From: Bacillota bacterium
Lineage (GTDB): Bacteria; Bacillota; Clostridia; Peptostreptococcales; Anaerovoracaceae
DNA length: 42,867 bases
Assembly: GCA_017459895.1 (NCBI GenBank)
Contig: JAFUCA010000028.1
Span: 1-42,867, forward strand
Reading direction: 5' to 3'
The notes beneath the pieces were generated by a model. It searched no databases and was not told where the DNA came from. It saw only the letters and a program-made list of their open reading frames with translations. Shown piece by piece: positions 4,286 through 40,384 of this stretch (position 1 is the first letter of the stretch; the number at the start of each line of letters is the position of its first letter). Position numbers and translations under genes: made by a program.

Positions 4286-4508
4286 GGAAGAAACTTTCGA
4301 TATTTAAGCCCATCGAAATCGACGGAATCTCGTAATTGGCATCCTGCAAAGGCTTGCCAGCCTTTGCATCAGAGATTTCGACCGGTCTTTAAGGAGAAAA
4401 ACTCGAATCACTGCGCCCTCTATCCGTCTTTGCCGGGCCTTATAGGGTCTTTTCAAAGCTCTTTTCGCGATTAAAGTCTTCTCCAGAGGTGAAAATCTCG
4501 AAAAGTCG
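4286..4508 (+). repeat. R element copy 1 (intergenic double-hairpin repeat)
   Basis: First hairpin has arms TTTCGATATT (4295) and AATCTCGTAA (4325). The central block is a perfect inverted repeat, TGCAAAGGC (4345-4353) and GCCTTTGCA (4360-4368), followed by CAGAGATTTCG. The second hairpin has arms TTTCGCGATT (4463) and AAATCTCGAAA (4493). The hairpin starts are 168 bp apart. It lies between the symporter stop and the terminator at 4217-4250. Confidence 0.85.
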
Positions 4509-4527
4509 TTCAGGTAAGCATTCCCGG

Positions 4528-6036
4528 TCAGAACATCCGACCCTCTGCCGCGCGCTTGGCGTCCAGCAGATCCTGGTATTTCTCCTCGGTGATCTTCTTC
4601 CACAGATCCGCGTTCTCGATGCCGCAGTCGGCGGGCTCGAAGACCGGATCCAGTCCCATCTTCTTCTGCCGCTCGTAATCCTTCAGCAGGCGGAACGACT
4701 TGGGTGCCATCAGGGCCAGCACCGGCAGGTTCAGCCAGCACATGATGCCGACGCCCACATCCGCGTAGTTCCACGCCGTGGTCATATCCTTCATGGAGGC
4801 GAAGAAGGCCAGGGTCGCGATAATCAGGCAGCCGATGTTATAGGCGTACCTCTTCGCCTTGTCGCTGTCACTCAGCGCGCCCAGCACATACTGGATATTC
4901 GCGTCCGCGTACACCGCGAAGGAAAGCAGCGTGGTAAAGGCGAAGAAGAACAGCGCGATGGTGATGAAGGGCGCGCCCAGTCCCGGAATGAAGCTGTCGA
5001 TGGCGCCCTGCACGAATCCCGGTCCGGCTTCCACGCCAGCCAGTCCCTCCACGATGGGATTGCCGTCCGCATCCAGCACGTTGTAGCATCCGGTGGACAG
5101 CATCATGATGGCGGTTGCCGTGCAGACCAGCAGTGTATCCACATAGACGGAGAAAGCCTGGGCCAGTCCCTGCTTCGCCGGGTGGGAAACCTCGGCTGTC
5201 GCCGCCGCATGGGCACCGGAGCCCCAGCCTGCCTCATTGGAGTAGATGCCCCGCTTGACGCCCATCATGACGCAGGATCCGAAGACGGCGCCGAACATGG
5301 CTTCCTGATTGAAGGCGCACTTGAAGATCAGGGCGAACATGGATCCGATGTGGGGCGCGTTGATGATCATGATGATCAGCGCCAGCAGCAGGTAGATGCC
5401 TGCCATGATGGGTACCACGTAGCCGGCAAACGTTCCGATCCGCTTCACGCCGCCCAGGGTGACGATGATGAAGAAGCCCGCCACGACAACACCTACGATG
5501 ATCGGACTGATCCCCAGATTCAGACCCCGGAAGGCGGAGGTGATGGCTCCCGCCTGGACCGTCGGTCCGGTAATGGTCATGGCCAGGATCGTCGCCAGCG
5601 CGAAGATGACCGCCAGCGGCTTGCACTTCAGGCCTTTCTCGATGTAGTAGGCCGGGCCGCCGCGGTATTCCCCCACGACAGTGGTCTTGTAGGTCTGCGC
5701 CAGGGTGGACTCCGAGAAGGCGGAGCCAGCGCCCACCAGCGCGATGATCCACATCCAGAAGACCGCTCCCGGGCCGCCGGTGCCAATGGCGCTGGCAACG
5801 CCGGCGATGTTGCCGGTGCCGACTCTGCCGCCCAGGGCCATGCAGAATCCCTGGAAGGACGATACGCCGTTGGCGCTGCCGCTGCCCTTCAGCAGCTGAC
5901 GGACCATGTCTCCGATCAGGCGAAACTGCGGGAACCGCAGTCCGATGGAGAGGAACAGGCCCACGGCGATGGCCAGATAGACCAGGGCCGGCGCCCAGAG
6001 ATATCCGTTGATCCAGCTCGCGAATTGATCCAACAT
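4528..6036 (-). CDS. Alanine/glycine/glutamine:cation symporter (AGCS family)
   Basis: 502-aa polytopic membrane protein; start ATG at 6036 with AAGGAG 6 nt upstream, preferred over the longer frame from 6117, whose extra 27 residues are hydrophilic and overlap the leader hairpin. Family signatures are clear: GRVGTGNIAGV near residues 70-80 and SNEAGWGSG at 266-274, both part of the substrate/Na+ site in AGCS transporters, with about ten hydrophobic segments. AGCS members import alanine, glycine or glutamine with Na+ or H+. The neighbouring sensor kinase and YcbB-type regulator resemble Bacillus subtilis GlnK/GlnL, which control the glutamine symporter GlnT of this same family, so glutamine is a reasonable substrate guess. 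The operon order is amidohydrolase, kinase, regulator, symporter. Confidence 0.93.
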   Translation of the reverse strand: MLDQFASWINGYLWAPALVYLAIAVGLFLSIGLRFPQFRLIGDMVRQLLKGSGSANGVSSFQGFCMALGGRVGTGNIAGVASAIGTGGPGAVFWMWIIALVGAGSAFSESTLAQTYKTTVVGEYRGGPAYYIEKGLKCKPLAVIFALATILAMTITGPTVQAGAITSAFRGLNLGISPIIVGVVVAGFFIIVTLGGVKRIGTFAGYVVPIMAGIYLLLALIIMIINAPHIGSMFALIFKCAFNQEAMFGAVFGSCVMMGVKRGIYSNEAGWGSGAHAAATAEVSHPAKQGLAQAFSVYVDTLLVCTATAIMMLSTGCYNVLDADGNPIVEGLAGVEAGPGFVQGAIDSFIPGLGAPFITIALFFFAFTTLLSFAVYADANIQYVLGALSDSDKAKRYAYNIGCLIIATLAFFASMKDMTTAWNYADVGVGIMCWLNLPVLALMAPKSFRLLKDYERQKKMGLDPVFEPADCGIENADLWKKITEEKYQDLLDAKRAAEGRMF

Positions 6037-6067
6037 AGCTTTCTCCTTTCGATTCAAACAAATAAAG

Positions 6068-6118
6068 AATGAGTTCTTTTGAGCGTACTGTACAGCACGT
6101 GTCTCAAAAAAACTCATT
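6068..6118 (-). promoter_or_regulatory. Hairpin between regulator and symporter genes (attenuator or processing site)
   Basis: Inverted repeat with outer arms AATGAGTT (6068-6075) and AACTCATT (6111-6118) and inner arms TTGAG (6079-6083) and CTCAA (6103-6107). With the T/A pairs between them this makes a stem of about 16 bp with one mismatch and a 19-nt loop. On the minus strand it is followed by CTTTATTTG, a weak T-run. It lies about 30 nt upstream of the symporter start, where it could attenuate or differentially express the symporter relative to the regulators. Confidence 0.6.
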
Positions 6119-6148
6119 TTTGTTCAGAAAGGGCTTTCTCTTTTCGCG

Positions 6149-6982: not shown

Positions 6983-6992
6983 CGCTTCTCTC

Positions 6993-8294: not shown

Positions 8295-8321
8295 CGTCTC
8301 TGCCTCCCTGGCGCAGCGAAC

Positions 8322-9953
8322 TTATCGCCGGTAAACCCGCCGGCCGCGGATGTACGTCTCCTCCACCTGCGCCTGATCCAGCCGGTCCGGATCCATGGTG
8401 AAGATGTCCTCGCTGAGCACCGCAAAATCCGCGGAGTATCCCGGCGCCAGCTGTCCCAGACCGCCGAAGCCGCAGACCCGCGCCGCATGAGCGGTATAGA
8501 GCCGGATGGCTGTTTCGATATCCACCTTCTCATCCTGCCCGATGTCTGTCCCGTCGTAGGCCCGCCGGCTCACCGCGGACTTCAGGTTGGAGAAGGGATC
8601 CGAGGGCACCGCCCAGGAAGTGGCCGGCGCGTCCGTGGAAAAGCTGAGATCGATGCCGCGCGCCAGCATGGTATGATAGGGATACAGCCGCTTCAGCCGC
8701 TCCCCATCCATGTTGGCCCGATAGGTCTCGATCTCGCAGTATTCGAAAATCGGCTGGCTCACGAAGGCGATCCCGCGCTCCGCTGCCAGCTTCATGGCGT
8801 GCTCCGACGGCTCCGTCACGTGTTCCACCCGCCAGCGGGGCGCGGCGTGTCCCTTCGCGGCCGCCCCGAAGTCGCTGCCGCGCCAGGAGGCAGCGGCCTG
8901 CTCCCGCACGGCTCGGTCCACGATCCGGTCGATGGCTCTTCCTCCCATGGCATGCACGGAGATCTGGCAGCCGCAGCGGTCCGCGAACCGAATGGCGCTC
9001 TCCAGATCCTCATCGGCATACACCGGCATCCCGAAGTCTTCGGTATTCAGGTACGGCTCCTGCAGCCAGGCAGTCCGGCCGCTGATGCTCCCGTCTCCGA
9101 TCAGCTTCAGTCCCGCGATGCGGATCTGCCGCTGTGGATCCATGAGCTCCTCCGTCAGCGCAAAGTCTGGATCGTCCTTGAAATAGTCCCACATATAATA
9201 GAGGCTCACCCGCTGCTGCATGCCGCGCTGCGCCGCCTTGCGGAACAGCTCGTAGTTGCCGCCGGGATGCAGATTCCCCATGTCCGCCACCGCCACGATG
9301 CCCTGGGAAAGCAGCAGCTGGCCCAGATCCACCAGGGCGGATACCAGTTCCTCCTCGGTCTGCTCCGGCATGAAGGGAAGCACCAGGTCCCGCGCGCTTT
9401 CCCGCAGGATTCCGGTGGGCTCGCCGCGCTCGTCCCGGTCGATGCTGCCGCCGGGAGGGTCCGGTGTGTCCCGGGTGATCCCGGCGATCTCCAGGGCCCG
9501 GCTGTTGACACAGCGAATGTGCTCGCAGCTTCGGACCAGAAATACCGGCCGGTCCGGGGCTCCCCGGTCCAGATCATAGCGGTTCGGGCCGCGCCGTTCT
9601 TCGTACTTTCCCTCATCGTAGCCCCAGCCCCGGATCCATCCGCCTTCCGGCGTCTGCTCCCGCTGACGTCCGATCTCCTCGGTCAGCTCCCGGATGGAGT
9701 TGATCTTCGGCGGCAGGCAGGCGATCTGCCGGGAGTACTCCGCCAGCATCACCGGATGCATGTGGGCATCCACGAAGCCCGGAATCACGGTCCGGCCCTC
9801 CAGGTCGATCCCATCCGTCTGCTCCAGCCTTTGGGTGAAATCCTCCATGCTCCCGGTCCGGACGATGCGTCCGTCCCGCACCAGCATGGCCTCCGCATAG
9901 GGGCGTTCCTCCTGTGATGTGAAGATTTTCCCGTTATAAAACAGCTGTTCCAT
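8322..9953 (-). CDS. YtcJ-like metal-dependent amidohydrolase
   Basis: 543 aa, the usual length for the Amidohydro_3/YtcJ group. Metal-site motifs are GFVDAHMHP (HxH after strand 1), SCEHIRCVN, the conserved VHAMGGRAID and FSTDAPATSW with the final catalytic Asp. These enzymes hydrolyse amide or formamide bonds of small molecules in the cytosol; relatives include N-substituted formamide deformylase, but the substrate cannot be read from sequence. It is the first gene of the operon that continues with the GlnK/GlnL-like pair and the symporter, so it may release an amino acid or ammonia. Ribosome site AAGGGAG precedes the ATG. It contains one copy of the dispersed word at 9824-9833. Confidence 0.9.
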   Translation of the reverse strand: MEQLFYNGKIFTSQEERPYAEAMLVRDGRIVRTGSMEDFTQRLEQTDGIDLEGRTVIPGFVDAHMHPVMLAEYSRQIACLPPKINSIRELTEEIGRQREQTPEGGWIRGWGYDEGKYEERRGPNRYDLDRGAPDRPVFLVRSCEHIRCVNSRALEIAGITRDTPDPPGGSIDRDERGEPTGILRESARDLVLPFMPEQTEEELVSALVDLGQLLLSQGIVAVADMGNLHPGGNYELFRKAAQRGMQQRVSLYYMWDYFKDDPDFALTEELMDPQRQIRIAGLKLIGDGSISGRTAWLQEPYLNTEDFGMPVYADEDLESAIRFADRCGCQISVHAMGGRAIDRIVDRAVREQAAASWRGSDFGAAAKGHAAPRWRVEHVTEPSEHAMKLAAERGIAFVSQPIFEYCEIETYRANMDGERLKRLYPYHTMLARGIDLSFSTDAPATSWAVPSDPFSNLKSAVSRRAYDGTDIGQDEKVDIETAIRLYTAHAARVCGFGGLGQLAPGYSADFAVLSEDIFTMDPDRLDQAQVEETYIRGRRVYRR

Positions 9954-10060
9954 CGCATTCTCCCTTGAAACACAGCGCCAGTCTCGCTTCGATGGTACGG
10001 CGCAAACTCAAAAAAACTCAGGATAACTCAGATTGCAGCAGAGCTGCCATATATGCACAC

Positions 10061-10265
10061 AAGGGACTTTCGAGATTCCGGAGATTGAAGGTATCTCAGA
10101 TCTCGAAAACTCCTTCCTGCAAAGGCTGGTTGTCCTCTTCTGTCAGAGATCTCAATGCATTCAAACACCCGAAATCTCGTACAGAGCCTCCCCTGAGGCA
10201 TGAATCCATTATGTTTTCATGAACTCGAGAACGGGTTTTCGAGATTCCAGCCTGCCCGGAGAGCA
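10061..10265 (+). repeat. R element copy 2
   Basis: Hairpin 1 arms TTTCGAGATT (10068) and ATCTCGAAA (near 10100), then CTTCCTGCAAAGGCTGG (word at 10120-10129) and GTCAGAGATCTC, CGAAATCTCG, ATGTTTTCATG, and the start of hairpin 2 TTTCGAGATT (10237), whose closing arm is lost. The 107 bases before it (9954-10060) and the 137 after it to 10402 show no gene; the stretch becomes AT-rich from about 10370. Confidence 0.85.
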
Positions 10266-10431: not shown

Positions 10432-10469
10432 TAACATATTATAACAATTTCAAGAAGAGAGGCCTCATC

Positions 10470-11706: not shown

Positions 11707-12930
11707 CTATACAATGCTCTCCTGTTCCAGCTTAATGCCTTCCTCCAGCATGCGGGAGAACAGTTCATGCTGCGCCTCATAATACGGATCCGCCAGCATC
11801 TGCTGCAGAGCCGTGCGGTCTCCTGCGGTCAGCGGCCGGCCGCTTTCGCGATAAGCTTCCCACGTCGCCAGATCCATCCGGTATGGTTCGAAGGAAATGC
11901 CGGTATGCTCACAGAGGGAGCGCCAGATCCGGAATCCTCCGCAGTCGATGTCTCCGAAATGACGATACCGCACGAGCGGAAATGCTTTGTGGATCCCTTT
12001 CAGCAGCTGCTGTCTTCTGCGTCCGGCAAACCCTCCCAGATACACCGCCAACGTGCTGTCCCCTTCAGTCCACCGGTGAAAGCTGGTCAGATTCTCGATG
12101 GTCAGGACCTGCTCCGGAGGTTCACTCGCATCCCAGCGGACCACATCCAGGTCTGCGCCTGCGATGCCGATGCCTTCCCGCAGCTCCTGCAGATCCACCC
12201 GGACACCGTCTCCGATCCGCAGCTGACCCCTGCCCTTCACATAGACCCACACGGGTGTGCGGTAAATACCATGCTCCTCCAGGATCTCATCCGCCGTCAG
12301 CCGGCCGTATGCATCTGCGGCGAACCGGCGAAATACGGCAGCCGCTTTCGGAAGCTCCTGCTCCGCCGTCTTGGAATCACGGAACACTTCAATCGAGAAT
12401 TCCCGCAGATACCGATCCTCGGTGCTGCGCTCCATGCCGCCAATCATCCGGCACAGCCGGTCAAAGCCGTCCGGATCCTCCGGCTGCGCAAACTGCCGGA
12501 TGCTCTCATGGCGCTCCAGCCTTTGCACGATCCAGTCAAGAAACGCTCCCAGCACCGGCGTACTCCCCGGACGAAGCTTCCTGCAGTTCTTAAGGATCCG
12601 CTGTTCCTGCTCCGCCTTCGGAGTTCTTCCGAGAAAGGCATAGGCTGCGGCAGCCTGCTCCCGCACCAGCGACACCTTTTCCAGAATATGTCCGCTCTGT
12701 CCGTCCTTCCAGTGAAGCTCGATCAGGCCTTTTTGCTGCAGCGCCTCCATCTGCTCATGCACGGTCTGCCAGGCAAGGGAGGACGTATCAAAATACGCCG
12801 GCAGATGCCTGCGGTCGATTCGGTAACAGACCCGGCGCCCGGTGGTCTCTGCCTGGGAAGCGGTATAATCCTTCCGGCGCTCCAAACTGTCCAGAAGGGC
12901 GTTCAGGATCTCCTCATCATATCTTCTCAT
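11707..12930 (-). CDS. jetD: Wadjet JetD nuclease subunit
   Basis: 407 aa. The N-terminal half (DUF3322-type, winged-helix-like, with YFDTSSLAWQTVHEQMEAL) and the C-terminal half (DUF2220, Toprim-like) match JetD. Toprim residues are visible: Glu279 in VLTIENLTSFH and the Asp327/Asp329 pair in RHFGDIDCGGFRIW. In Wadjet, JetD nicks and cuts circular DNA that the JetABC motor cannot finish extruding, removing plasmids. ATG 12930 is chosen over 12948 because TGGAGG lies 9 nt upstream; it overlaps the end of jetC by 14 bp. Last gene of jetABCD; a dispersed-word copy lies at 12516-12525. Confidence 0.93.
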   Translation of the reverse strand: MRRYDEEILNALLDSLERRKDYTASQAETTGRRVCYRIDRRHLPAYFDTSSLAWQTVHEQMEALQQKGLIELHWKDGQSGHILEKVSLVREQAAAAYAFLGRTPKAEQEQRILKNCRKLRPGSTPVLGAFLDWIVQRLERHESIRQFAQPEDPDGFDRLCRMIGGMERSTEDRYLREFSIEVFRDSKTAEQELPKAAAVFRRFAADAYGRLTADEILEEHGIYRTPVWVYVKGRGQLRIGDGVRVDLQELREGIGIAGADLDVVRWDASEPPEQVLTIENLTSFHRWTEGDSTLAVYLGGFAGRRRQQLLKGIHKAFPLVRYRHFGDIDCGGFRIWRSLCEHTGISFEPYRMDLATWEAYRESGRPLTAGDRTALQQMLADPYYEAQHELFSRMLEEGIKLEQESIV

Positions 12931-15900
12931 GAGTGAAATCCTCCACATAACTCAGCTGTCCGTCGGTCAGGACCAGCAGGACACTGTCCACCTCAGGAGC
13001 AATGTATTGAATCTTTTCCGGCGGCGCGGCGATGATGGTCTGGAGGTTGGAATGGTTCATGAAAGACAGGACGCCCTTCATTCTGGAGTCGTCCATGTTG
13101 TTGAAGGCTTCATCCATCATCACAAGGCCTATGGCATCTGTTCCGATGCTGGCCCTGTACAGCTGCATAAAGGAAGCCGCGATGGTGATATAGAACGGCG
13201 TCTGGGTCTCACCTCCGGACTTCTCCCGGCTGACCTTGGAATAGAACATGCAGCTTCCGTCATCAAAAGTGATCCGGATATCGTAATCCATGTACGTCCG
13301 GTAGTCCGTGTACTCCTCCAGCGCCTTCGCGCTGTTCTCATCATCCATGGCAAGCCGGGCAAACAGTTCATCGATAGCCTGCCGGTGGGCTTCGTTGAAC
13401 CGGCTGGTGAACAGCGATTCCCCTTCCAGCACATTAAAATCATCCATGATCATATCATAGAACTGCTTCAGGTTCCTGCGCGGCTCATAGCGGAATTCAT
13501 ACCGTTCATTGGCGAAGCGTATATCCGCCAGGCCCCGGTTCAGATCGCGGAACTCCTGCTGCGCCTGCCGGATGTTCTCCTGCAGCCTTGCCAGGAACTG
13601 CTCCCGGAACTCTGCCTCCGCCGCGTCTTTCGCCCGTTGGACCTTGTCCTGATATTCCAAAAGCTGTGAATGCTTCAGTTTATCGTACTCCGCCTGAAAC
13701 TCCGGGAATCCTTCCATCGTATCGGGAGCACCGAAATCGTGCGCGATCCGGTAGGCGCGCATCGCTTCCATCATCACATGCTCCGTTTTCTCCCGCCGAG
13801 TGCGGTTGCCCTTGCGTGCTCCCTCGTAGTTCTGACGGTACTTTTCGTACTCTTTGCCGGCGGTCTGTTTCTCATATTCCCGGTCACAGTCCGGACCTTC
13901 CTCCGCCAGGCGCCCGCGGACCGCGGCAGTTTCCTCCTGCTGCGCGTTCAGCTGCGCTGTGACATCTTCGATGCTCTGCTCGCAGCTGCTGATTCGTTCC
14001 TGGGCCTGGCCCAGCGCCAGCAGCGTCTCCTCCAGATCCTGCTGCAGCTTCGCCTTCTCGTTCTCGAGGGCCTGCAGATGGAGCTGCTTCTGCATCATCG
14101 TCCGGCTCCCCTGCAGCTGCGCAAGTTCCTTTTCACAGGTATCCAGCTGCGTCTGATGCTCCCGCAGCAGCTCCAGTTCCTTCAGCCGGAAACTGACCTC
14201 GATATCCTCATTTCCGGACAGCGGCTCCAGCATGGCTTCCTGCTGAGCCGCCTGCTGACGCAGATCGGCCAGTGCCTCGTCCATCTTCTGCTTCTCCCCG
14301 CGAGCCTGCTCCAGCTGGACCCGGTAAGCGCCAGAGCCGATGTAGGGCTGGCTGAAGATCTTCGGCGAGATCGCGCTGACCACATGATTCTGATATTTCA
14401 TGCACTGTTTTGTGATGGATACCGGATACCGCTTCAGCTGTTCGACGCTTTCACAGCAATGCACCTTCCCCAGCACCATATTGGCGTAGCGTCTGGCGCG
14501 GGGATCCTTCGAACTGACATACTGCGCCAGGCTTCCCTCCGGCGCCTCTTCGTATTCTCCCAGCCGGCCGGTATTGATGAGGCCTACACCGTAGGCCTTC
14601 TTCCGCCGTCTCAGCTGATCATAGACTCCGGCAGCCATATCGAAATCCTCCGGATCCACCAGAAGGTAGAACCGCTGCGTGTTCAGGTACCCTTCGACGG
14701 CATTGCGCCACGCTTCGTCCCGGATCTCCAGCTGCTCACAGAGGATGCTGGCCTCTCCGGATCTGCCCAGGCTCTTCAGCTGCGCGCGGATCTTCTCCTG
14801 CAAAAGCTGGACTTCCGGCCGGTAGACGAGCTGCTTGTTCTCCAGCATCCGGATCCTGCCCGCAATCTCCGTCAGCGCGCTTTCCTGCTCGCTGATGCGG
14901 ATGCGAAGCCGGGCCAGAGCCCCGCTGACCTCCCGGAACGTCTGCTGCTTGAACTCCTTTACCTCCTGCATCCCGATGCGAAGACCGGTCAGATCCGGCA
15001 GGGCTGTCAGTCCCCGCAGGGCTGTGCTGTAATCCTGCAGTGTCCCCGCGAATGCATGCTCCCCGCCCAGAGCCTGCCGCAGAGCATCCGCCCGGTCTGC
15101 TGCCCGAAGCGCGTATCCATTCAGTTCCTCCACCGACATCCGGTCAGAGGAGAGCTGTGTCTGCAGATCCTTCTTCTGCTTCTGCAGCTCCTGCAGCGCC
15201 TGAAATTCGCGGTCGCCGGCAAGCTCCATCTGCAGCCGCAGGATCGACTGCTCCTTGCTGTCCCGTATCCGGCTGAGCTTTTCCTTTTCGTGGCGCAGAC
15301 GGGTCCGGTCCCCCTGCGCCCTGCGCCGTCCAGCCTTTGCATCCTCGATCTCCTGCTGCAGCAGATCACAGGCGATTCGCGCCAGGAAATACTCCTGCCG
15401 GCAGTCGATGCGCAGGTAATTATCCACTTCTGCCTTGCGGGCAAGGATCGTTTCCAGTTCTTCTATGCGGATCCGGACATCCTTCAGCATCCGCTCCAGC
15501 TCCTGGAAGCTCTGCACATTCTCCCGCAGCGCTTCGATATTGACTTCTTTTTCGTCCAGTACGTAGGAATAGACGAAGTCCTTGATGTCGTGGATCGGCC
15601 GGAACGCCAGAGCCTTCGGGATCAGCGAAAAGAACTTGTTCTCCAGCCGTCCGAACCGGGTGAGGATCATCTTTCTGGCCTCGGTCGCGGTCTGGGCGAA
15701 CTGGCGGATGCCCCGGTTCGTCGAGCGGAACACAGAGATGCTTTTGACCTGGCGTCCCTGAAAGAACAGTTCATCCTCCAGCTGCCGGTTGTCCATGAGA
15801 TACCAGGCGACGTTCGGTTCCTTCTCTTCGGTCAGGGAATCCATAACCGCTCCGATGACAAAGGGCTTGTCTCTTTCTTCATCAAAAAACTCCAGAGCGA

Positions 15901-16754: not shown

Positions 16755-18178
16755 CAGTCCTGCTTCTCCTTTCTGCGTATCTCAAAATCCCGGAATCGGA
16801 ATCCGTCCTTTCGCACGTGCTTTCCGGGGATGATCTCGTAGCTCATATTCTTTCGCTGTCCGTACAGGCGGACGTAAATCAGGCGGATGAAGGTGTCGTC
16901 TTCCTCCAGCGGCAGCTGCGACGCCATGATCTGCTGCCGGCCGTCCAGTATGGTCTGCACGTAGGCATCGATCTTCTCCGCGCTCAGAACGCGTTCCAGT
17001 TTCTCCGCAATCTGCCTCAGTCGCTGCTGCCGGCTTTTCTCATCCACGCTTCGCGCAGCGATCTCCTGGGGCTGGAACGCCTTCTTCTCTGTACGGGGAG
17101 CGTGAAGGGAATCGGTGTCCAGATACTGGATCGAAAACAGACGGATCAACCGGTCCGTTTCCTCCAGTTCATAGATCATATTGTGATCCGTATAGCCTTC
17201 GGACTGAAACGCGTCATTCAGTGCGCAGATGATATCCTTCAGCTGGCCGCGCACATCGTCCGAGGAGGTCAGCAGGAAACGGGCCCGGCCGACGGCTGCT
17301 CTCTGGTAACGGGCATTCTTGCGGTTGATCTCGTCGAGGATCTCATCCATCTGCCGAAAGGCTTCGATCACGTCGTGCAGCATATCCAGCGCCAGCGAAC
17401 GCGCCTGCTCCTCCGGGATCTCCCGGATCTGCGCCAGTTCTCTCGCCGCGCCGTTCATATAGCGGCTGCTGCGGCTGCTCTCCTCCAGCCTTTGGATAAT
17501 CTCCGGGCGGAACTTGGAAACGTTATCCGAAGTCATCAGCCGATGGTACGCCTTATCGACCACATTGGTGTAATAGTCGTTCAGCAGCGCATCCAGGATC
17601 TGCGCCACGGTTCTGTGCTTCGTCAGATCATCGATGTACTGTTTGATATTGGCGTTCAGGCTCTTGAGTCCGGTGATCAGAAGTTCGGTGTTCTCCACGA
17701 TCTGGGTCAGCGCCAGCCCCGGATGATCCTTTGCCCGGGCAAGATTGTAAATGGTATAGATGTACCCCTGATACTCCGTCTTCTCTTCGTGTTCGATCTG
17801 TGTCAGGGTCCGTATCACCCGGATCGCGTGATCCCGGAAGCTGACCCGCTGCACGTAGCTGTAATCCACCTCGATGCTGATCCATCCATAGCGCTCCAGA
17901 CGGCGCAGCATATGGTTCGCCTTATCCCGGGGGGACAGCGCCATTCCGGCGCCGCTTCTGTTTCTGTCCTGCTCCTCCCATGCGTCCCGGGGAAGGTCTG
18001 CCGCCAGATTTTGCTCGAAATAATACTCCAGCTCGTCCACCAGCACGTCCCGCTCCACACCAAAAGAAAGCTGTCTGCTGGTGATCGCAAACAGCCTCCG
18101 GATGCACTCCCAGTACACGGTCTTGCCGGGAGCCGCCAACGGGCCGAAGAAATTGTCCGGAATGATATCGAACAGCAT
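16754..18178 (-). CDS. jetA: Wadjet JetA kleisin-like subunit (type II-like)
   Basis: 474 aa from ATG 18178, matching the DUF5716-type JetA of type II Wadjet (MLFDIIPDNFFGPLAAPGKT and a Trp/Cys-containing helix just after). The N-terminal winged-helix region binds JetC heads; the middle is helical; the C-terminus is basic. A TTG at 18226 would add 16 residues but has no ribosome site and would lie upstream of the promoter. The preferred ATG has no Shine-Dalgarno sequence either: it sits exactly where transcription should begin (see the promoter entry), suggesting leaderless translation. First gene of jetABCD. Word copy at 17485-17494. Confidence 0.92.
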   Translation of the reverse strand: MLFDIIPDNFFGPLAAPGKTVYWECIRRLFAITSRQLSFGVERDVLVDELEYYFEQNLAADLPRDAWEEQDRNRSGAGMALSPRDKANHMLRRLERYGWISIEVDYSYVQRVSFRDHAIRVIRTLTQIEHEEKTEYQGYIYTIYNLARAKDHPGLALTQIVENTELLITGLKSLNANIKQYIDDLTKHRTVAQILDALLNDYYTNVVDKAYHRLMTSDNVSKFRPEIIQRLEESSRSSRYMNGAARELAQIREIPEEQARSLALDMLHDVIEAFRQMDEILDEINRKNARYQRAAVGRARFLLTSSDDVRGQLKDIICALNDAFQSEGYTDHNMIYELEETDRLIRLFSIQYLDTDSLHAPRTEKKAFQPQEIAARSVDEKSRQQRLRQIAEKLERVLSAEKIDAYVQTILDGRQQIMASQLPLEEDDTFIRLIYVRLYGQRKNMSYEIIPGKHVRKDGFRFRDFEIRRKEKQD

Positions 18179-19046: not shown

Positions 19047-19076
19047 CCCAAAGGCTGGTCCAGCCCGCGCGGACCA

Positions 19077-19661: not shown

Positions 19662-21742
19662 TTCTTCACCGCTTCCAGAATTCCTCCGGCGCGGACGGCC
19701 CGCTGCGCCGGCTCCGTCAGATCATCCCACCGGGGGATCCTGCCGCTGACCGACTCGTGCAGCCAGTCCATGGTAACAATCTCCTGAGGCGTAAGGCCCA
19801 CGTCCGCCTCGGTCTTTTCTTCGAAAAATCCCTGCCGGAGCTTCTTTTCTCCTGCGGACAGGACCCTTCGCAGGACGTTTCCCTGCCGGGCACCGGAAGA
19901 GGGCTGCCCGCCGGGGGTTCCGGCTTTCGTACCGCCGGCCGCTCCAGCCTTTGCGCCTTCCCCCAGCGGACCGGCCTGGGAAAACAGCTCGCCCTCGAAG
20001 GGACCGATCAGTCCGGCCATCAGCGCCTTCCGCAGCCCTTCGATGAGATGACGGGTACTCCGGGGAACCTCCTCCGAAATCCCGATGTCGATGACACCGG
20101 AAGAAAGCCCCCACCAGTAATTCAGCGCCTGGTCTCTGGCGGAACCCGCTTCCCGCTGCCATGCCCCCGCCATAGCGGCGCGGACCATGGTCTCATAGAA
20201 CCGGCTCCAGTCCCAGATGGGCGTTCCCAGCCGGCAGATGCTGCCGTCCGGCTCATACCGATAGAGCCCGTATTCCCTGTCTTCCCTTCCCGGACGGATC
20301 AGATCCGGTCCGGACACAATGGAGATCCCTTCCTCCCGCAGCTCGTCCCTCCAGCTGTGGTCCTTCAGACAGGACCAGGTGAGATGGATCTGCACTTTGG
20401 GATCGATCATCGCCGCGCCGACGGCAAAGGCATTGATGTTCGCTACCGTCCCGAACAGAGGAACTCCGCAGACGTAGCCGATCCGGTGGTCCTCCGCCAG
20501 GACTGCCGCCAGCGCCCCCAGCAGGAATTTCACCTCGTACATCCTGCCGTAATAGCTGCGGACCGCCCGGTGGGACAGGTGAACGGAACAGTTCAGGAAA
20601 CGCACCTGCGGGAAGCGGACCGCCGCGCGCAGCGTATCGTTCATCTGAATCGGCGATGTGGTGAAAATGATCTTCGCCCCCTGCTGCATGGCTTCATCCA
20701 CGGCGGCGGTGAACTCCTCGGAAGAAGCGCACCCGGGATAGGCGGACGTCCGGACCCTGCCCTGCATGCGCTCTTCCAGACTGCGCCGTCCCTGTTCGTG
20801 TCCGTGGATCCAGCGGGACTGCTCCGGGTCTCCGTCGTAGATAAACGCGACGTGCAGCGGATGCGACGGCGACGGGCTGCCCGCCCGGCTAATGATCTTC
20901 TTCAGGGGGCTTCGCGGCCGGCGGATATTGGGAATGCGCAGAAAGGCGATGGGCTCCCGGTTCGACTGGACCCGGTATTCCTCCCAGAGGCCTTTGATCT
21001 TCTTTCGAAGATCCTCCTCCTGCCCGCCGCCCAGCGGACCTCTCCCGTAAACATCCAGAAACAGCAGAAACGCGTCTCCCGGCGAAAGCCGCAGTTCCTC
21101 TCCTCCCCGGGCGCTGTAGGCAGAGGAAAACCGGATATAGGAAGACCGCAGGCTTTGCACCGCCCGCCAGTCCCACGGCTCGTCCAGCTTCTGACCGAAG
21201 GCCGCCGCCAGACGCTCGTAGCCGCCCCTCTGGGAAAGCATGGGCTCATACTGTTTCGTGCATCCGTAAAACCGCAGGAACTCCCGGTAGACCAGCACCT
21301 CCTCGGACTGCACCTCCGGCGGATGGATCCGCGTGACGTTCGCCGGAATGCCGGGATTGTCCAGGTATTTCATGACAGAGACCCGCTTGTTCCCTTCCAG
21401 AACGTAGAATCTTCCCAGGAACTCGTAAACCTTCACCGGCTCCGCGATCCCCTGCTGCTCCTGGTATTCCAAAAGGCTGGTCCACTTCAGCGCGAATTCG
21501 GAATCGATCGGAAGCAGCGGCATGAAATTGTCCGCGAAGGACTCCTGCCTGCCTCTGGTCACCGTTCCCGCGATCAGGCGGATCGGGATCTCCAGGACGC
21601 CCAGCCGCTCCTCCCGCAGACGATCCGCTCCCCGGAGGATTTCATCCAGCGCCGGCAGGAACGGGTATTTCCCTTCTGCCACATTCTTTCGATAAGCCTT
21701 CTCGGCTGCTTTCTTTGCCTTCGCGTAATCGTTAAAGTCCAT
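19658..21742 (-). CDS. ParB-like plus BMP/PnrA-type ligand-binding fusion, cytosolic
   Basis: 694 aa without signal peptide or membrane segment. N-terminal 1-160 contains a ParB/sulfiredoxin-like segment (IPIRLIAGTVTRGRQESFA, then FYVLEGNKRVSVMKYL), followed by a helical linker. Residues about 280-590 resemble the BMP/PnrA periplasmic nucleoside-binding fold (LHVAFIYDGDPEQSRW, TSPIQMNDTLRAAVRFP, RIGYVCGVPLFGTVANINAFAVGAAM). The tail has an Ala/Gly/Lys low-complexity insertion (GAKAGAAGGTKAG) followed by a charged region. Normally BMP domains sit on lipoproteins of nucleoside ABC importers; here the protein should be cytosolic, perhaps a ligand sensor. Co-translated with the metallophosphoesterase. 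Role unknown. Confidence 0.75.
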   Translation of the reverse strand: MDFNDYAKAKKAAEKAYRKNVAEGKYPFLPALDEILRGADRLREERLGVLEIPIRLIAGTVTRGRQESFADNFMPLLPIDSEFALKWTSLLEYQEQQGIAEPVKVYEFLGRFYVLEGNKRVSVMKYLDNPGIPANVTRIHPPEVQSEEVLVYREFLRFYGCTKQYEPMLSQRGGYERLAAAFGQKLDEPWDWRAVQSLRSSYIRFSSAYSARGGEELRLSPGDAFLLFLDVYGRGPLGGGQEEDLRKKIKGLWEEYRVQSNREPIAFLRIPNIRRPRSPLKKIISRAGSPSPSHPLHVAFIYDGDPEQSRWIHGHEQGRRSLEERMQGRVRTSAYPGCASSEEFTAAVDEAMQQGAKIIFTTSPIQMNDTLRAAVRFPQVRFLNCSVHLSHRAVRSYYGRMYEVKFLLGALAAVLAEDHRIGYVCGVPLFGTVANINAFAVGAAMIDPKVQIHLTWSCLKDHSWRDELREEGISIVSGPDLIRPGREDREYGLYRYEPDGSICRLGTPIWDWSRFYETMVRAAMAGAWQREAGSARDQALNYWWGLSSGVIDIGISEEVPRSTRHLIEGLRKALMAGLIGPFEGELFSQAGPLGEGAKAGAAGGTKAGTPGGQPSSGARQGNVLRRVLSAGEKKLRQGFFEEKTEADVGLTPQEIVTMDWLHESVSGRIPRWDDLTEPAQRAVRAGGILEAVKK

Positions 21743-21769
21743 AATCTCCTTTCCCCATCCCGCCGGTTC

Positions 21770-22537: not shown

Positions 22538-22565
22538 AAACAATCCCCCCTGCCGCTTTCACCGG

Positions 22566-23045: not shown

Positions 23046-23076
23046 AAGCACCTCCATACTTCAGCGGAATCTCTGT

Positions 23077-23106
23077 ATTATACCATCCGGCCGGTTTGTT
23101 CAGCAA
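23077..23106 (-). promoter_or_regulatory. Promoter of the GNAT gene
   Basis: On the minus strand TTGCTG (23106-23101), 18-bp spacer, TATAAT (23082-23077), giving a leader of about 25 nt with a GGAGGTG ribosome site. Confidence 0.65.
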
Positions 23107-23136
23107 CATTGTGATTATGTTAAAGCAAAATCTGCA

Positions 23137-23165
23137 TTGCCCGGTCGGCGGGATGATGCTATCCT
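23137..23165 (+). promoter_or_regulatory. MATE-gene promoter with almost no leader
   Basis: TTGCCC (23137-23142), 17-bp spacer, TATCCT (23160-23165), then eight bases to ATG 23174. Predicted start is within 1-2 nt of the ATG and there is no ribosome site. Same -35 word as jetA. Confidence 0.6.
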
Positions 23166-23173
23166 TTAATCGT

Positions 23174-27882: not shown

Positions 27883-29522
27883 AGCACGTCCTCCAGCACG
27901 CCCTGCAGGCCTTCTTCCCGGTACATTTCCTTATATGCCGCCAGCTCCTCCGCGATGACCTGATCGATCGCCCGCATGCTCAGCACCTCCACCGGCGCCC
28001 GGTCATCGGTGAGAATATGTCCCTGCCCTTCGTAGGCTGTGAGCTGCCCGGGGATCTGCCCCAGGAAGGCCCGAAGCCGCGCCCGTTTCACGGGATCCGC
28101 GGTCGCGATTTCCTCCAGAGCCTGCCGGTAAGAGGCCTGCTCCAGCCTTTGCATGGAGGCGAAGAGGATCCGGTTGGTATTGTTCTTCACGTCCACGGTC
28201 TGCACGTATGGGTACACGGAGGCGATGGTGTCGGACAGCCAGGCGTTGATCCCGTCCTCCGCATCGGACCGCAGGTTCATGTTCACCACCATCACCCCGT
28301 TCTCCGTCAGGTGCTCCCGGGTCTCCGAGAAAAATTCCTTCGATGACATCTGAAAGGGTATGGTGATGTCCTGATAGGCGTCCACCATGATCACATCGTA
28401 CTTCTGATCCGTGGCCATCAGGTACGCCCGGCCGTCATACGTCGTCACCTTCGCGTCCCGGGGCAGCTGGAAATACTCATGGGCCAGATCCGTGATCTTC
28501 TCGTCGATCTCCACGCCCTCGATGTCCAGATTATCGAAATATGCCCGGCACTGATGATCGTAGGTCCCGCTGCCCATCCCCAGCACCAGCACCTTCAGCG
28601 GCTCTTTATCCTGCAAAGGCTGGTTCGCTGCGGCCATCACGGGAGCTGCCATGGCATAATCGTAGTACATGCCGGTGAGCTGATCCTGCTTCTCCAGCAG
28701 CGACTGCACGCCGAAGAGCACGTTGGTGGAGAGGATCACCTGCTGATCCGTCTCCCGGACCTGCAGATAGTTGTAGATGGACTCCCCTTCGTAGGTCAGA
28801 TCGCTCTCCCAGAAGGCGAAGTGGCTGGCGTTGCCGAATACCGCGCAGATGCAGAAGGCGATGCTGCAGACGATGCAGGCCAGTTTCCTGCGCCGGCAGG
28901 AGATGAAATAGATCAGAGCCAGGATCAGCAGGATCCCGGAGAAGATCAGGAAGGTGATGGCGGTTCCCACCGCCGGGATCGTTACGAAAGTCGGAAGGAA
29001 AGTTCCAATGATGCTCCCGATGGTATTGAATGCTCCCAGCATGCCCACCGTGGTACCGCTCTCCTCCAGGCTCCCCACGGTGTACTTCACCAGGGATGGC
29101 GTCACCGTTCCCAGCAGGAAACATGGGAACACGAAAATGATCATGCACGCCGCAAAGGCCGCGATGACCAGGAGGTTATGGCTGATGGTGATGATCAGCG
29201 CTCCCGAGATCAGCAGGATCATGTACTTGCCCAGCAGCGGGATCGCCGCGATCCACACCGCCGCGATGAGAAGCCGCCGGTACAGTATATCCGGATCCGG
29301 CCGCTTGTCCGCGCTGCGTCCGCCGTAGACATTGCCCGCCGCCATGGCGATCATGATGGTGGCAATGATGATGGTCCAGACGATCTGGGACGAAGAGAAA
29401 TACGGCGCCAGCAGGCGACTGGCCCCCAGCTCCACCGCCATGATCGCCATCCCGGAGAAGAACTCCGTGAGATAGAGATAGGCTTTGCTCTTCAGGATGT
29501 TGTACTGTTTCTGTGTCTCCAT
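27879..29522 (-). CDS. Membrane-fused spermidine-synthase-like methyltransferase-fold protein
   Basis: 547 aa. Residues 15-235 form about seven membrane segments (FSGMAIMAVELGASRLLAPY is the typical start of this fused family). Residues about 240-530 form a Rossmann domain like spermidine synthase: LKVLVLGMGSGTYDHQCRAY, a loop ending in GVEIDE, VTTYDGRAYLMATD and YDVIMVDAYQD. Family members are often annotated as fused MFS/spermidine synthase; whether they make polyamines is doubtful. First gene of a unit with EamA and DUF1810. Word copies at 28142-28151 (MQRLE) and 28614-28623 (NQPLQ). Confidence 0.88.
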   Translation of the reverse strand: METQKQYNILKSKAYLYLTEFFSGMAIMAVELGASRLLAPYFSSSQIVWTIIIATIMIAMAAGNVYGGRSADKRPDPDILYRRLLIAAVWIAAIPLLGKYMILLISGALIITISHNLLVIAAFAACMIIFVFPCFLLGTVTPSLVKYTVGSLEESGTTVGMLGAFNTIGSIIGTFLPTFVTIPAVGTAITFLIFSGILLILALIYFISCRRRKLACIVCSIAFCICAVFGNASHFAFWESDLTYEGESIYNYLQVRETDQQVILSTNVLFGVQSLLEKQDQLTGMYYDYAMAAPVMAAANQPLQDKEPLKVLVLGMGSGTYDHQCRAYFDNLDIEGVEIDEKITDLAHEYFQLPRDAKVTTYDGRAYLMATDQKYDVIMVDAYQDITIPFQMSSKEFFSETREHLTENGVMVVNMNLRSDAEDGINAWLSDTIASVYPYVQTVDVKNNTNRILFASMQRLEQASYRQALEEIATADPVKRARLRAFLGQIPGQLTAYEGQGHILTDDRAPVEVLSMRAIDQVIAEELAAYKEMYREEGLQGVLEDVL

Positions 29523-29886: not shown

Positions 29887-30051
29887 TTTAAAGACGATGC
29901 GTTCCATCTCAACGGGCATTTTCGGCAGGACGCTGAAAAACGTTTTATCTGGTAATTTGACCCAAAGAAATACGGCGCCGCCGGGAGGGACGCCGTACAA
30001 AGGCTGGTCATGCGCCGGATCAGGAATCTGATCACTGCACGTTAAGCTTAA

Positions 30052-31460: not shown

Positions 31461-31695
31461 AAACGAACATTCGAGATCGAACAAGTTTGTGAAAGCTTAA
31501 ATCTCGAAACTTCCTTCTTGAACACATGAAAACAGAAGGCATTCGTGTCCCAGATGAGGTCTTGTTCGAGATTCCGAATGATTCAATGAACCAAAATCTC
31601 TGACCGGATGGACTGACCAGCCTTTGCAGGAAGGAGTATTCGAGATTTGACATACCTCTGCTCCTCGATATCCCGTAATTTCCTTCCGGCCCTTT
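31461..31695 (-). repeat. R element copy 6 (inverted orientation)
   Basis: Read on the minus strand: AAATCTCGAATACTCC, TTCCTGCAAAGGCTGG (word at 31617-31626), CCGGTCAGAGATTTT, GGAATCTCGAAC, TGTTTTCATG, then a TTTCGAGATTTAAGC hairpin. Hairpin starts on the plus strand at 31469 and 31638 are 169 bp apart. Confidence 0.83.
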
Positions 31696-31701
31696 GATCT
31701 C

Positions 31702-32139: not shown

Positions 32140-32368
32140 TTATCTGCCTGAATTATATCCAGTTTTCTTGTCTGTGGCAATCACCTCACCGAATGAATTT
32201 CTCGCCTTCCGATCCGCCTCCTGCTTCGGCAGAGGCACGCCAGCCTTTGCACCGGCTTCCTTGAGCTTCAGAAACCACGCCATGTTTCTTGCCAGCACCC
32301 GCAGGATCCAGCGCCTTGTTGGTGCAGCCCGACTTGTGGGGCGATCCGTTTACGAGCAATACTTTCAT
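32140..32368 (-). pseudogene. Remnant of a flavodoxin/NADPH-dependent reductase gene
   Basis: Starts in one frame as MKVLLVNGSPHKSGCTNKAL at 32368, the exact N-terminus of GSPHKxGCT-type FMN reductases, with an AGGAGG site. It then continues only in another frame as RNMAWFLKLKEAGAKAGVPL, the usual C-terminus of the same family, stopping at 32140. About 150 residues of the middle are gone. It sits between an intact flavodoxin and the PPOX gene. Word copy at 32240-32249. Confidence 0.8.
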
Positions 32369-33738: not shown

Positions 33739-33818
33739 TGTTGTTCTCCTTTCGCCTTAAAGGTGCGTCACATCTATAGGTTTCTTGTTTCGATGGATAC
33801 ATTATATGCAAAGGCTGG

Positions 33819-35331: not shown

Positions 35332-35376
35332 AAATCAGGAAATCGAAAATGCAAGACGAATCAGAGGAGGTACGTG

Positions 35377-35865
35377 ATGTCAACGCAGAGACCGATGAGA
35401 AAAAAAGACAGAGAAGTGACGGAGCCCGCGGCGATCAACGGGATCATCGAGCAGATGGATGCGATTCGGATCGGGTTTTTCGACGGAGATGAGGTCTATA
35501 TCGTCCCGCTCTCCTTCGGCTACGCGGAGGAGGACGGCAAGTACACGTTCTATATGCACGGTGCAAAGGCTGGCCGCAAGGCGGATCTGGTAAGGCAGTG
35601 CGCAAAGGCTGGCTTCGAACTGGACAGGGCCATCGAAGTTAAAACGGATCCGGAGCCCTGCGATCACACGGTGCAGTACAACAGCATCATCGGACACGGA
35701 AGCATCGATGAAGTGACCGATCCGGAAGAGAAGAAGGTCGCACTGAACGCCATCATGAAGCAGAACACCGGCAAGGGTGACTGGGACTTCCCGGAGAAGA
35801 TGGTGCAGGCCACCTTCGTGATGAAGCTCAGCGCCGACTGGATCACCTGCAAGGTGCATGAGTAA
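35377..35865 (+). CDS. PPOX/Nim-like flavoprotein (nitroimidazole-reductase family)
   Basis: 162 aa from ATG 35377 with AGGAGG 6 nt upstream. Pattern MRKKDREV, then IRIGFFDGDEVYIVPLSFGY, YTFYMHGAKAGRKADLVRQC and QYNSIIGHGSI is that of NimA-like FMN proteins in the split-barrel family. Some members reduce nitroimidazoles to inactive amines, others have unknown substrates, so resistance should not be assumed. Two word copies lie 39 bp apart (35564-35573 and 35603-35612), both read as AKAG. Confidence 0.88.
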   Translation: MSTQRPMRKKDREVTEPAAINGIIEQMDAIRIGFFDGDEVYIVPLSFGYAEEDGKYTFYMHGAKAGRKADLVRQCAKAGFELDRAIEVKTDPEPCDHTVQYNSIIGHGSIDEVTDPEEKKVALNAIMKQNTGKGDWDFPEKMVQATFVMKLSADWITCKVHE

Positions 35866-35868
35866 AAC

Positions 35869-35908
35869 AGAGCCTGTTCCCACGAAATGTGAGAGCAGGC
35901 TCTTTTTT
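35869..35908. terminator. Bidirectional intrinsic terminator
   Basis: AGAGCCTG (35869-35876) and CAGGCTCT (35896-35903) form an 8-bp stem followed by TTTTTT on the plus strand and GTTTT on the minus strand. It separates the convergent Nim-like and AKR-ferredoxin genes. Confidence 0.85.
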
Positions 35909-35909
35909 A

Positions 35910-37052: not shown

Positions 37053-37082
37053 TCATGTATCCTCCTATGTTCCTTATGCTCC

Positions 37083-37604: not shown

Positions 37605-37630
37605 AATAATTGCCTCCTTATTGTATTGGT

Positions 37631-37875
37631 GATGCAGAAGGACTTTTCGAGATTATATCGTCAGAAGAGGTTCTTAATCTCGAAATTACTCCTGCAAGGA
37701 CTTGAAATATGCTATGAAAACGGATAATAAACTTATCGATTCGAGATTTCCCAGGTTCAAATCGGACGAAATCTCTGATGCAAAGGCTGGCCAGCATTTG
37801 CAGGAAGACCAATTCGAGAAGATTTCGAGATTCAGCCTGCCCAGATGGGCTTAAATCTCGAAAGTTCCTTCCTTA
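37631..37875 (-). repeat. R element copy 7 (inverted orientation)
   Basis: Hairpins TTTCGAGATT (37645) to AATCTCGAAA (37676) and TTTCGAGATT (37823) to AAATCTCGAAA (37852), 178 bp apart. The core is an inverted repeat of the word, CAAAGGCTGG (37781-37790) abutting CCAGCATTTG. Its right end overlaps the MerR stop by 3 bp. The most regular copy. Confidence 0.88.
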
Positions 37876-38647: not shown

Positions 38648-38659
38648 GGGATTCTCCTC

Positions 38660-39496
38660 CTACTGTTTCTCCGGCTGCAGCGGTCCGTAGTAATAAGACG
38701 CGGTCGCACCGCCGTCCGCCAGGAATGTGGAACCCGTGATGAATGCTCCCGCATCACTCATCAGAAGCTCTGCGATATTCGCCATTTCATCCGCTGTTCC
38801 CGGTCTGCCCGCCGGACACTTCGCAAACATGTTCTTATAGAAATCCCCGCGCGGGCCATTAAACTCATCGATGGCCAGCGGTGTCACGATGATGCCGGGC
38901 GCGATGTCATTCAGCCTTGCTCCTCTCTCGCCCCAGCGGACGCACTCATACATCACGCGCTTCTCGTTGCATCTCTTCGCCATCTGGTAAGCATGAAGCG
39001 TGTCCCTGATGTTCTTCGGCTTTAAGATCTCAAGATCCAGAAGTTCCTCTGCAGGCGTAGTTGCCAGCGCTCTGTCCTGCTCCGGCGTAAGCTGCGGCAT
39101 TCTCCATCCGGACTGGCTGGAGATGGTCACGCCGGCGCCGCCTTCCGCGATCACCTTGCCCACTTCCTCGAGTAAGACCGCCGTTCCGTACAGATCCACC
39201 TTCAGAATGGTCTCGATGGGTGCCTGGGACGGAGAGACGCCGGCACCGTTGACCAGATATTTGATCTCGCCGTACTCCTGTGCCTTGGCGATCATCGCGA
39301 GAATGGATTCCCTGGATGACAGATCCATCTCAAAGGGTTCCACGTCGTACCCTGCCTCGATCATGATCTTAGCAATGGCCTCGCAGTTCTTCCTGCTCTT
39401 GTCGCCAAGTATGATCTTCTTTCCGAACCCAACTCTTCTGGCAATCGCCATGCTGATCTGCCCTGCGCCGGTAACGATCATTACGTCTTTCTTCAT
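38660..39496 (-). CDS. Short-chain dehydrogenase/reductase
   Basis: 278 aa from ATG 39496 (GGAGG 8 nt upstream; a TTG 6 nt earlier is too close). Rossmann start VMIVTGAGQISMAIARRVGF is a variant of TGxxxGxG; NGAG in YLVNGAGVSP and catalytic-region Tyr in DTLHAYQMAKRCNEKRVMYE (YxxxK) are visible. Oxidoreductase with NAD(P); substrate unknown. First gene of the SDR, truncated flavodoxin, MerR unit with a MerR-type promoter. Confidence 0.9.
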   Translation of the reverse strand: MKKDVMIVTGAGQISMAIARRVGFGKKIILGDKSRKNCEAIAKIMIEAGYDVEPFEMDLSSRESILAMIAKAQEYGEIKYLVNGAGVSPSQAPIETILKVDLYGTAVLLEEVGKVIAEGGAGVTISSQSGWRMPQLTPEQDRALATTPAEELLDLEILKPKNIRDTLHAYQMAKRCNEKRVMYECVRWGERGARLNDIAPGIIVTPLAIDEFNGPRGDFYKNMFAKCPAGRPGTADEMANIAELLMSDAGAFITGSTFLADGGATASYYYGPLQPEKQ

Positions 39497-39528
39497 TGTC
39501 AATGCCTCCCCCGTAATGTGCTACCAAA

Positions 39529-39559
39529 AGTATACGACCTGGAGTTAACTCCAGGTCAA
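39529..39559 (-). promoter_or_regulatory. MerR-type promoter with 19-bp spacer and perfect palindrome
   Basis: Minus strand TTGACC (39559-39554), 19-bp spacer, TATACT (39534-39529). The spacer is filled by a perfect 22-bp palindrome (39536-39557; half-site GACCTGGAGTT). An over-long 19-bp spacer spanned by a palindrome is the hallmark of MerR-activated promoters. Probable target of the MerR at 37873-38250. Confidence 0.9.
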
Positions 39560-39625
39560 GTGTTTTTTATAAACTTTTGATTCGGATACACTCTTAAGAG
39601 AACAGGTGAGGACATCCGGCACTCG

Positions 39626-40384
39626 TTATTTCAGTTTACCGTAGTCTTCATCCGATACGGGCTCATGCCATTCAGTGCCTGCGTCCTCGCCCGGGACCTC
39701 GACCGCAATATGGGAGAACCACGAATCCAGCGCTGCGCCGTGCCAATGCTTGACATTCGGCGGAATATTGATCACCGTTCCCGGTGTCATTTCAATCGGA
39801 TCCTTGCCCCATTCCTGATAGTAGCCGCGGCCTCCCACGCAGATCAGCATCTGCCCGCCGCCGCTTCCCGCATGGTGCGTATGCCAGTTGTTTCTGCATC
39901 CCGGCTCAAAGGTCACATTGAACATCGGGACCTGCTCCATGGACAGCGGCGCCAGGAAGCTTTGGCCGACGAAATACTGCGCGTAGGCTTCGTTCGGCTC
40001 CCCGATGGGGAAGAAGATCGTATTCTGGTATCTGTCCTTATCCGTAAGTTCCGGCTGCTTCTCGCTCCACACCTGCTTCGCCAGATTAAAGACGGCCCAG
40101 CCTTTGGGCCAGCCCACATACATCGCGGCATGGGTAATGATGGCGGCGATCTCTTCTTTCGTAACGCCGTGAGCCTTCGCGTTCTGCAGGTGATACTGCA
40201 AAGAAGAATCCGTAATCCCGGACGCCATCAGGCTTACCACCGTGATGATACACTTTGTCTTCACATCTATGGCTTCTTCGTTCCACACCTCACCGAACAG
40301 CACATCATCGTTCAGATGTGCAAAGGCTGGCGCGAACTCTCCCAGCTGCTCTCTTCCTGCCGTCTGTACGATTTTTTCACTCAT
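39626..40384 (-). CDS. Carboxymuconolactone decarboxylase-like/cupin fusion
   Basis: 252 aa from ATG 40384 (AAGGAGG about 9 nt upstream). N-terminal CMD/AhpD-like helical domain (VKTKCIITVVSLMASGITDS, AHGVTKEEIAAIITHAAMYV) lacking the CxxC of true AhpD, and a C-terminal cupin with metal ligands HTHHAGSGGGQ and PPNVKHWHGA. Such fusions are found next to aldo/keto reductases and TetR or LysR regulators. Substrate unknown. Word copies at 40097 and 40321. Confidence 0.9.
   Translation of the reverse strand: MSEKIVQTAGREQLGEFAPAFAHLNDDVLFGEVWNEEAIDVKTKCIITVVSLMASGITDSSLQYHLQNAKAHGVTKEEIAAIITHAAMYVGWPKGWAVFNLAKQVWSEKQPELTDKDRYQNTIFFPIGEPNEAYAQYFVGQSFLAPLSMEQVPMFNVTFEPGCRNNWHTHHAGSGGGQMLICVGGRGYYQEWGKDPIEMTPGTVINIPPNVKHWHGAALDSWFSHIAVEVPGEDAGTEWHEPVSDEDYGKLK

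Follow-up and report, generated by a model that had tools for sequence, protein, structure and literature searches.

To date, DNA uptake sequences have been described chiefly in two Gram-negative families, and a 2025 paper describes uptake as sequence-independent in almost all competent species besides Neisseria and Haemophilus (PMC12040237). A literature search, thin on subscription journals and run without bioRxiv, found no uptake word in Clostridia, in agreement with a preliminary description of the DNA studied here, which knew of none; a single literature search found no paper on natural competence in the family Anaerovoracaceae. Here we describe a word, CAAAGGCTGG, that recurs throughout a 42,867-nucleotide stretch (contig JAFUCA010000028.1, 'the window') of a genome assembly from that family (GCA_017459895.1, denoted G000; 2,495,951 bases in 55 contigs, which are given C numbers). 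Quite probably, this word lies at the centre of a DNA uptake sequence by which a clade of uncultured Clostridia would recognise its own DNA in transformation.

The window contains the word 23 times exactly, with 10 copies on the forward and 13 on the reverse strand; the average over 100 dinucleotide shuffles is 0.11. The preliminary description had given an expectation of about 0.1, with which the shuffles agree, and 22 copies divided 10 to 12 between the strands; the strong excess and the near-even strand use hold, while its count had overlooked a reverse-strand copy in a predicted gene at 2944–2953, outside the range that it covered. The excess is genome-wide: G000 holds 395+396 copies (forward + reverse strand; 791 in total) versus 4+3 of a control word consisting of the same letters read backwards. 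The figure of 791 is an upper one because some G000 contigs are redundant; C24:1–4817 is identical to window positions 19713–24529, and C14 duplicates part of C34 (L028 and L066). In 414 kb of G000 there are 150 copies versus 1.22 under a second-order Markov model (an approximately 120-fold excess), and a 652-kb sample freed of known contig overlaps (L028 and the L015/L063 overlap, these being the ones checked) contains 224 copies, or 0.34 per kb. The 470-kb sample used below for the analyses of skew, spacing, flanks and pairs includes L028, which repeats part of L066, and a few copies are counted twice in it.

The G000 copies mostly carry TG directly before the word (T 0.65, G 0.73). At +15 counted from the word's first C there is a preference for C (0.54), with weaker preferences alongside it, and the flanks are otherwise little alike. 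Overall the motif resembles TGCAAARGCTGG; its core, GCAAAGGC, is followed after eight bases by the loosely conserved C. The TG also precedes the imperfect copies CAAAAGCTGG and CAAAGGCTG[ACT]; copies with a mismatch at position 6 or 8 keep the preceding G and not the T, and the distal C is present in all three groups of imperfect copies inspected. One-mismatch copies in the 652-kb sample are enriched 16-fold at position 10, 14-fold at position 5, 7-fold at position 6 and approximately 4.5-fold at positions 1 and 8, and are not enriched (0 to 1.6-fold) at A2–A4, C7 and G9. Because mismatch enrichment differs by position, the word has both fixed and soft positions. The tolerance of positions 1, 5, 6 and 10, and the intolerance of A2–A4 and C7, are found alike in G000 and in two relatives introduced below, G322 and G326; position 8, enriched 4.5-fold in G000, is nearly flat in G326 (1.9-fold, with small expected numbers). 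The distal C stands at the same position in G322, G326 and a further relative, G243, and G324 has a weak C one base further out.

A sister species (G326, the metagenome-assembled genome (MAG) RGIG2468) uses GCAAAGGCAAC in place of CAAAGGCTGG. In 201 kb of that genome GCAAAGGCAA occurs 44 times versus 0.36 expected and CAAAGGCAAC 38 times versus 0.32 expected; the G000 word is found merely 2+2 times in its 2.0 Mb, and CAAAGGCAAC once in 652 kb of G000. The dialects (word versions TGCAAAGGCTGG and TGCAAAGGCAACG) differ in their 3′ ends, TGG in G000 versus AAC in the sister species. We take the two genomes to represent what would be one mode of recognition with differing 3′ specificity. This switch between sisters, together with their similar tolerance profile, provides the strongest argument for an uptake word. 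Enriched words built on the same core, weaker than these two dialects, are present in further members of the genus, and enrichment is absent in G162, G127 and G210. A distant relative (L183) shows strong enrichment of the palindrome TTTGCAAA in 21.9 kb (24 counts on two strands, equal to 12 sites), possibly another iterated word.

The exact word is itself shared. Among the other 295 of 296 sampled genomes of the family its next highest count is 26, and a search with an enzyme that we take to be a fructose-bisphosphatase (FBPase) led to three further MAGs in which it is abundant: G322 (242+235), G324 (180+195) and G325 (163+171), with reversed-word controls of at most 8. The remaining 12 genomes of that search contain 3 to 21 exact copies each, and G323 contains 4+9. 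One MAG (CAMOGZ) has two FBPase genes, L123 and L167, which match the query at 90% and 65% identity; the FBPase contig L123 of G323 may have strayed in from another species, because the same bin also yielded L167. The idea that the word is an oddity of a single species is countered by these three MAGs and by the dialect words of relatives.

The core is dense in part of the genus. Across the 23 genus genomes examined, of 49, the density of GCAAAGGC is bimodal, with 13 genomes at 332–545 per Mb, one at 191 and nine at 42–126; among 20 genomes outside the genus, picked by eye as densest, the highest value is 202 per Mb. An FBPase tree was built from 45 rows (our own sequence and 44 hand-chosen loci of the 80 fetched), to which we assigned rich, poor and unsure labels ourselves. 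All 18 motif-rich rows (those with a significant GCAAARGC excess) lie within one clade of 26 with 100/100 support, the other eight of which are undecided, while the 19 rows outside it comprise 15 poor and 4 undecided ones. When the three labels are counted, 'rich' changes eight times on the tree, because unsure rows sit among rich ones; the simplest reading of the tree may still be a single origin of the motif-rich state. G000, G322 and G324 cluster together (100/99) and adjoin G326 and two relatives, and the isolates Emergencia, Aminicella, Hornefia and Eubacterium minutum, labelled Anaerovoracaceae, are among the distant rows.

Individual sites outlast their surroundings. One-to-one comparisons of G322 and G324 with G000 cover 38 word sites, of which 19 are the same in the two genomes compared versus 3.7 expected from the identity of their flanks (16 of 29 for G322), and third codon positions are identical at 76 of 98 positions within the word versus 661 of 1097 in the flanks. 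The preliminary description had suggested looking for conservation beyond codon needs, and the sites are conserved more than flank identity predicts; flank identity is the same for conserved (0.758) and changed (0.765) sites. No G000 word site aligned across the FBPase region in the six closest relatives checked. A looser comparison of G322 with G000 gave 13 ungapped sites that differ: five have a single changed base, one has two changes and seven have three or more. Neisseria uptake sequences present in one genome only, and too divergent for point mutation, have been read as arrivals by recombination (PMC2397512).

A scarcity of the word in foreign DNA is suggested by one mobile island (L281:1866–20000, equal to C3:44609–62743), inserted after the tmRNA gene and with a GC content of approximately 40–51%. 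The island encodes a large serine recombinase, a Replic_Relax relaxase, a TrwB-like coupling protein, an amidoligase and ThiF and JAB-domain proteins, and holds one copy in 18.1 kb versus approximately 6.2 expected (Poisson probability approximately 0.015 by our own arithmetic, for this single island). One copy is likewise present in the 20 kb of L283. A word-free stretch of 12 kb at L011 contains a microcompartment-type operon, and prophages were rejected as the cause of such deserts on the basis of this operon and of the housekeeping genes in two others (L020 and L017, below).

Genes for DNA uptake are present in G000. ComEC, ComEA and DprA score above the TIGR00361, TIGR00426 and PF02481 cut-offs, respectively, and a cluster at L066:7071–10892 encodes a T2SSF protein, four small pilin-like proteins with (by eye) a hydrophobic N-terminal stretch, one of them a DUF4860 protein, and an ATPase above the TIGR01420 (PilT/PilU) cut-off. 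A GGDEF protein directly follows the cluster. Its gene order is kept in G322, G326 and, within the piece fetched, G324. The DUF4860 protein is modelled as a long helix followed by strands, with a predicted local distance difference test (pLDDT) score of 81, and the top three PDB matches of that predicted fold are type II secretion minor pseudopilins, at weak E-values of 0.045 or worse; the model of a 104-residue protein has a pLDDT of 64. PilT-type matches, called by our own reading of frame length and profile range, are found in 11 of 13 motif-rich versus 2 to 4 of 9 motif-poor genomes of the genus (Fisher p = 0.007 or 0.07, with no correction for kinship). Divergence between dialects was considered as a pointer to a receptor and singled out no one protein: identity is 29–39% for the T2SSF protein and three of the small proteins and 46% for the fourth, and because they diverge alike no candidate stands out. 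G000 also has a Tad operon, which represents an alternative machine because Micrococcus luteus is reported to use Tad/Flp pili in transformation (PMC6370729).

There is good support for the reading, proposed in the preliminary description, that the word would work as DNA uptake sequences do: it agrees with the enrichment, the strand balance, the shuffles, the conservation of sites and the com and pilin-like genes, and the dialects and the shared mismatch profile lend it further support. As to the system behind it, we lean towards one that would have arisen independently in Clostridia, bears dialects, and would have as its reader a small apparatus of pilin/PilT (or Tad) type lacking PilB/ComGA. 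A surface protein, perhaps a small pilin-like protein from the T2SSF/pilin/PilT cluster or, alternatively, part of the Tad pilus, would bind word-bearing DNA. Bound DNA would then enter via ComEA and ComEC, be handled by DprA and recombine with the chromosome. Word copies would spread, and be kept, through such biased uptake and recombination because tagged fragments would enter preferentially, and the 3′ difference between the sister species would limit exchange between them.

Several other origins of such a word must be weighed. It is highly improbable that codon or peptide use, or a dispersed repeat, has produced the word as an artefact. One repeated element does account for some intergenic copies (six were aligned, four being from the window), and GCAAAGGC is commoner along genes in several relatives. 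Past the motif, though, the flanks of the copies are generally not alike, and of 178 in-gene copies in the 652-kb sample synonymous codon shuffling retains a mean of 2.85 (maximum 8 in 100 shuffles), which rules out codon use as the cause of the G000 word. Those copies occupy all six frames, 100 along the gene and 78 against it, as the preliminary description had noticed on a smaller scale from differing frames and both directions. Density is 0.32 per kb inside genes, which were predicted with a home-made caller, and 0.50 per kb between them. Chi-, KOPS- (FtsK-orienting polar sequence) or AIMS- (architecture imparting sequence) like sites, which act with polarity in recombination or segregation, fall within a comparable range of abundance and length; such a role is barely conceivable here, given 92 leading versus 79 lagging copies by the GC skew of each stretch and 395 versus 396 overall (on unoriented contigs). 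Even strand use had already been held against polar sites, and no clear bias relative to skew was found. Neighbouring copies instead favour opposite orientation, in 59 of 94 adjacent pairs (first 100 listed places, contigs C1–C6; p = 0.017) and, within 1 kb on the same contigs, in 22 cases versus 8 with the same orientation.

A site for a nucleoid or chromosome-organising protein, in which a dense non-polar family would be selected for chromosome structure and be unrelated to uptake, would account for the strand balance, the near-random spacing, the conserved sites, the intergenic enrichment and the long motif with its distal half. We nevertheless regard it as unlikely: in the sister species the 3′ half is switched at hundreds of sites with the core kept, which disfavours a structural site family because all of its sites would need to change together, whereas uptake and recombination of tagged DNA would offer a ready route to such a switch. 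An origin like that of the cyanobacterial HIP words, made and kept by methylation-dependent repair or a modification system, is decidedly improbable. HIP1 is likewise abundant and highly iterated; some genomes have alternates of it, and deviations from it by one base are described as position-biased (PMC4390886). The HIP words are palindromes tied to methyltransferases; the word here is non-palindromic, differing from its own reverse complement, and its motif spans approximately 12 to 17 bases.

A number of observations weigh against an uptake word, or against parts of the proposed system. PilB/ComGA was not found in G000; where the preliminary description had suggested looking for a ComEA/type IV pilus set, ComEC, ComEA, DprA and pilin-like/PilT genes are present. 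The cluster PilT has no close match in the word-rich G325 (best identity 28%, in a draft MAG), and PilT is not above the cut-off in G250 and G277, also draft MAGs. A distal C above threshold is absent in six of the nine other relatives with a usable sample (G268, G305, G250, G279, G235 and G313), and in G268 (41:14), G305 (27:7) and G243 (27:10) more copies of the core word run along the gene than against it, so that these dialects are less certain. Just 3 of 9 word sites are identical between G324 and G000, and none of six word occurrences in alignments is common to the word-rich G324 and G322. Two word-free stretches of approximately 17 kb (L020 and L017) hold housekeeping genes and not foreign DNA, including those that we take from their Pfam hits to be smc, ftsY, mfd and prs. 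Spacing is approximately random, with no clear departure on 120 kb of C6 and in the window, where an even spacing of copies was not found.

Pairing of copies adds to this list. Inverted pairs of uptake words at terminators are frequent in Neisseria and Pasteurellaceae and are not part of a universal definition. Hairpin pairs are rare here, with 5 in approximately 470 kb of G000, 3 of them intergenic, versus uptake sequences in approximately 55% of the Neisseria terminators considered in one study (PMC1852404). Most traits of uptake words that are visible in sequence are present in G000; frequent hairpin pairs are not. Three intergenic inverted pairs had been reported in the window: that at 4346–4367 is exact across GCAAAGGC, the partner of the copy at 37781 is imperfect, and that at 19049 is a short GGCTGG/CCAGCC pair. 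The likeness then drawn to terminator-style pairing finds little support: pairs are rare in the genome sample, and four intergenic window copies are part of one repeated element. A terminator-like site was absent at 4200–4600, the sole place scanned, and a role for the word in termination is weakly supported.

Eight of the 23 window copies are intergenic. Four of these, at 4357–4366 (reverse), 10120–10129 (forward), 31617–31626 (reverse) and 37781–37790 (forward), lie in an intergenic repeat of approximately 100–160 bases that has the word close to its centre and, pointing both ways, several half-sites similar to AAATCTCGAA, and the pairs at 4346–4367 and 37781 both sit within it. Six examples of the repeat were aligned, from window positions 4280–4440, 10040–10210, 31540–31700 and 37710–37860 and from L013:10020–10170 and L014:14680–14840. 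The other intergenic copies are at 19049–19058, 29998–30007 and 33809–33818 on the forward strand and at 32240–32249 on the reverse strand. Exact matches within predicted genes, besides the copy at 2944–2953, are located on the reverse strand at 9824–9833, 12516–12525, 15330–15339, 17485–17494, 19944–19953, 22826–22835, 24076–24085, 28142–28151 and 40097–40106, and on the forward strand at 22670–22679, 28614–28623 (not conserved in G324 by alignment), 35564–35573, 35603–35612 and 40321–40330. Two further repeated words were observed: AATCTCGAAA occurs 10 times in the window, and CGTGACAATT/AATTGTCACG is a second enriched word of G000 (20 copies versus 0.19 expected in 414 kb), with its 9-mer core found five times in L010 (C6:20001–40000).

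If the word is an uptake sequence, a Gram-positive lineage, beyond the Neisseriaceae and Pasteurellaceae, would have evolved transformation with self-recognition by sequence, and natural transformation would seem to take place in these uncultured bacteria. Independent occurrence in Clostridia would provide a natural replicate for the question of whether uptake words serve self-recognition or are a by-product of receptor bias, and the dialect boundary between the sister species makes the idea of an exchange barrier directly testable.

In Haemophilus, the uptake signal sequence (USS) has a flanking half approximately one helical turn away, and this distal part consists of A/T tracts. The word described here differs from that of the Pasteurellaceae, and its distal part is a C/G-rich position. 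Like the USS, it is abundant both in and between genes, and its one-mismatch forms are over-represented too (PMC1939737). Compared with the DNA uptake sequences (DUS) of the Neisseriaceae, the word is unrelated, its host is Gram-positive, and the genes identified include no ComP, PilB or secretin. The DUS is a non-palindromic word of 10–12 bases with hundreds of copies on both strands, as is the case here; its sites are described as outlasting their surroundings and as scarce in recently acquired genes (PMC2397512), a scarcity that one island suggests here, and its dialects as tracking phylogeny around a fixed core (PMC3630211), in the same manner as those of G000 and its relatives.

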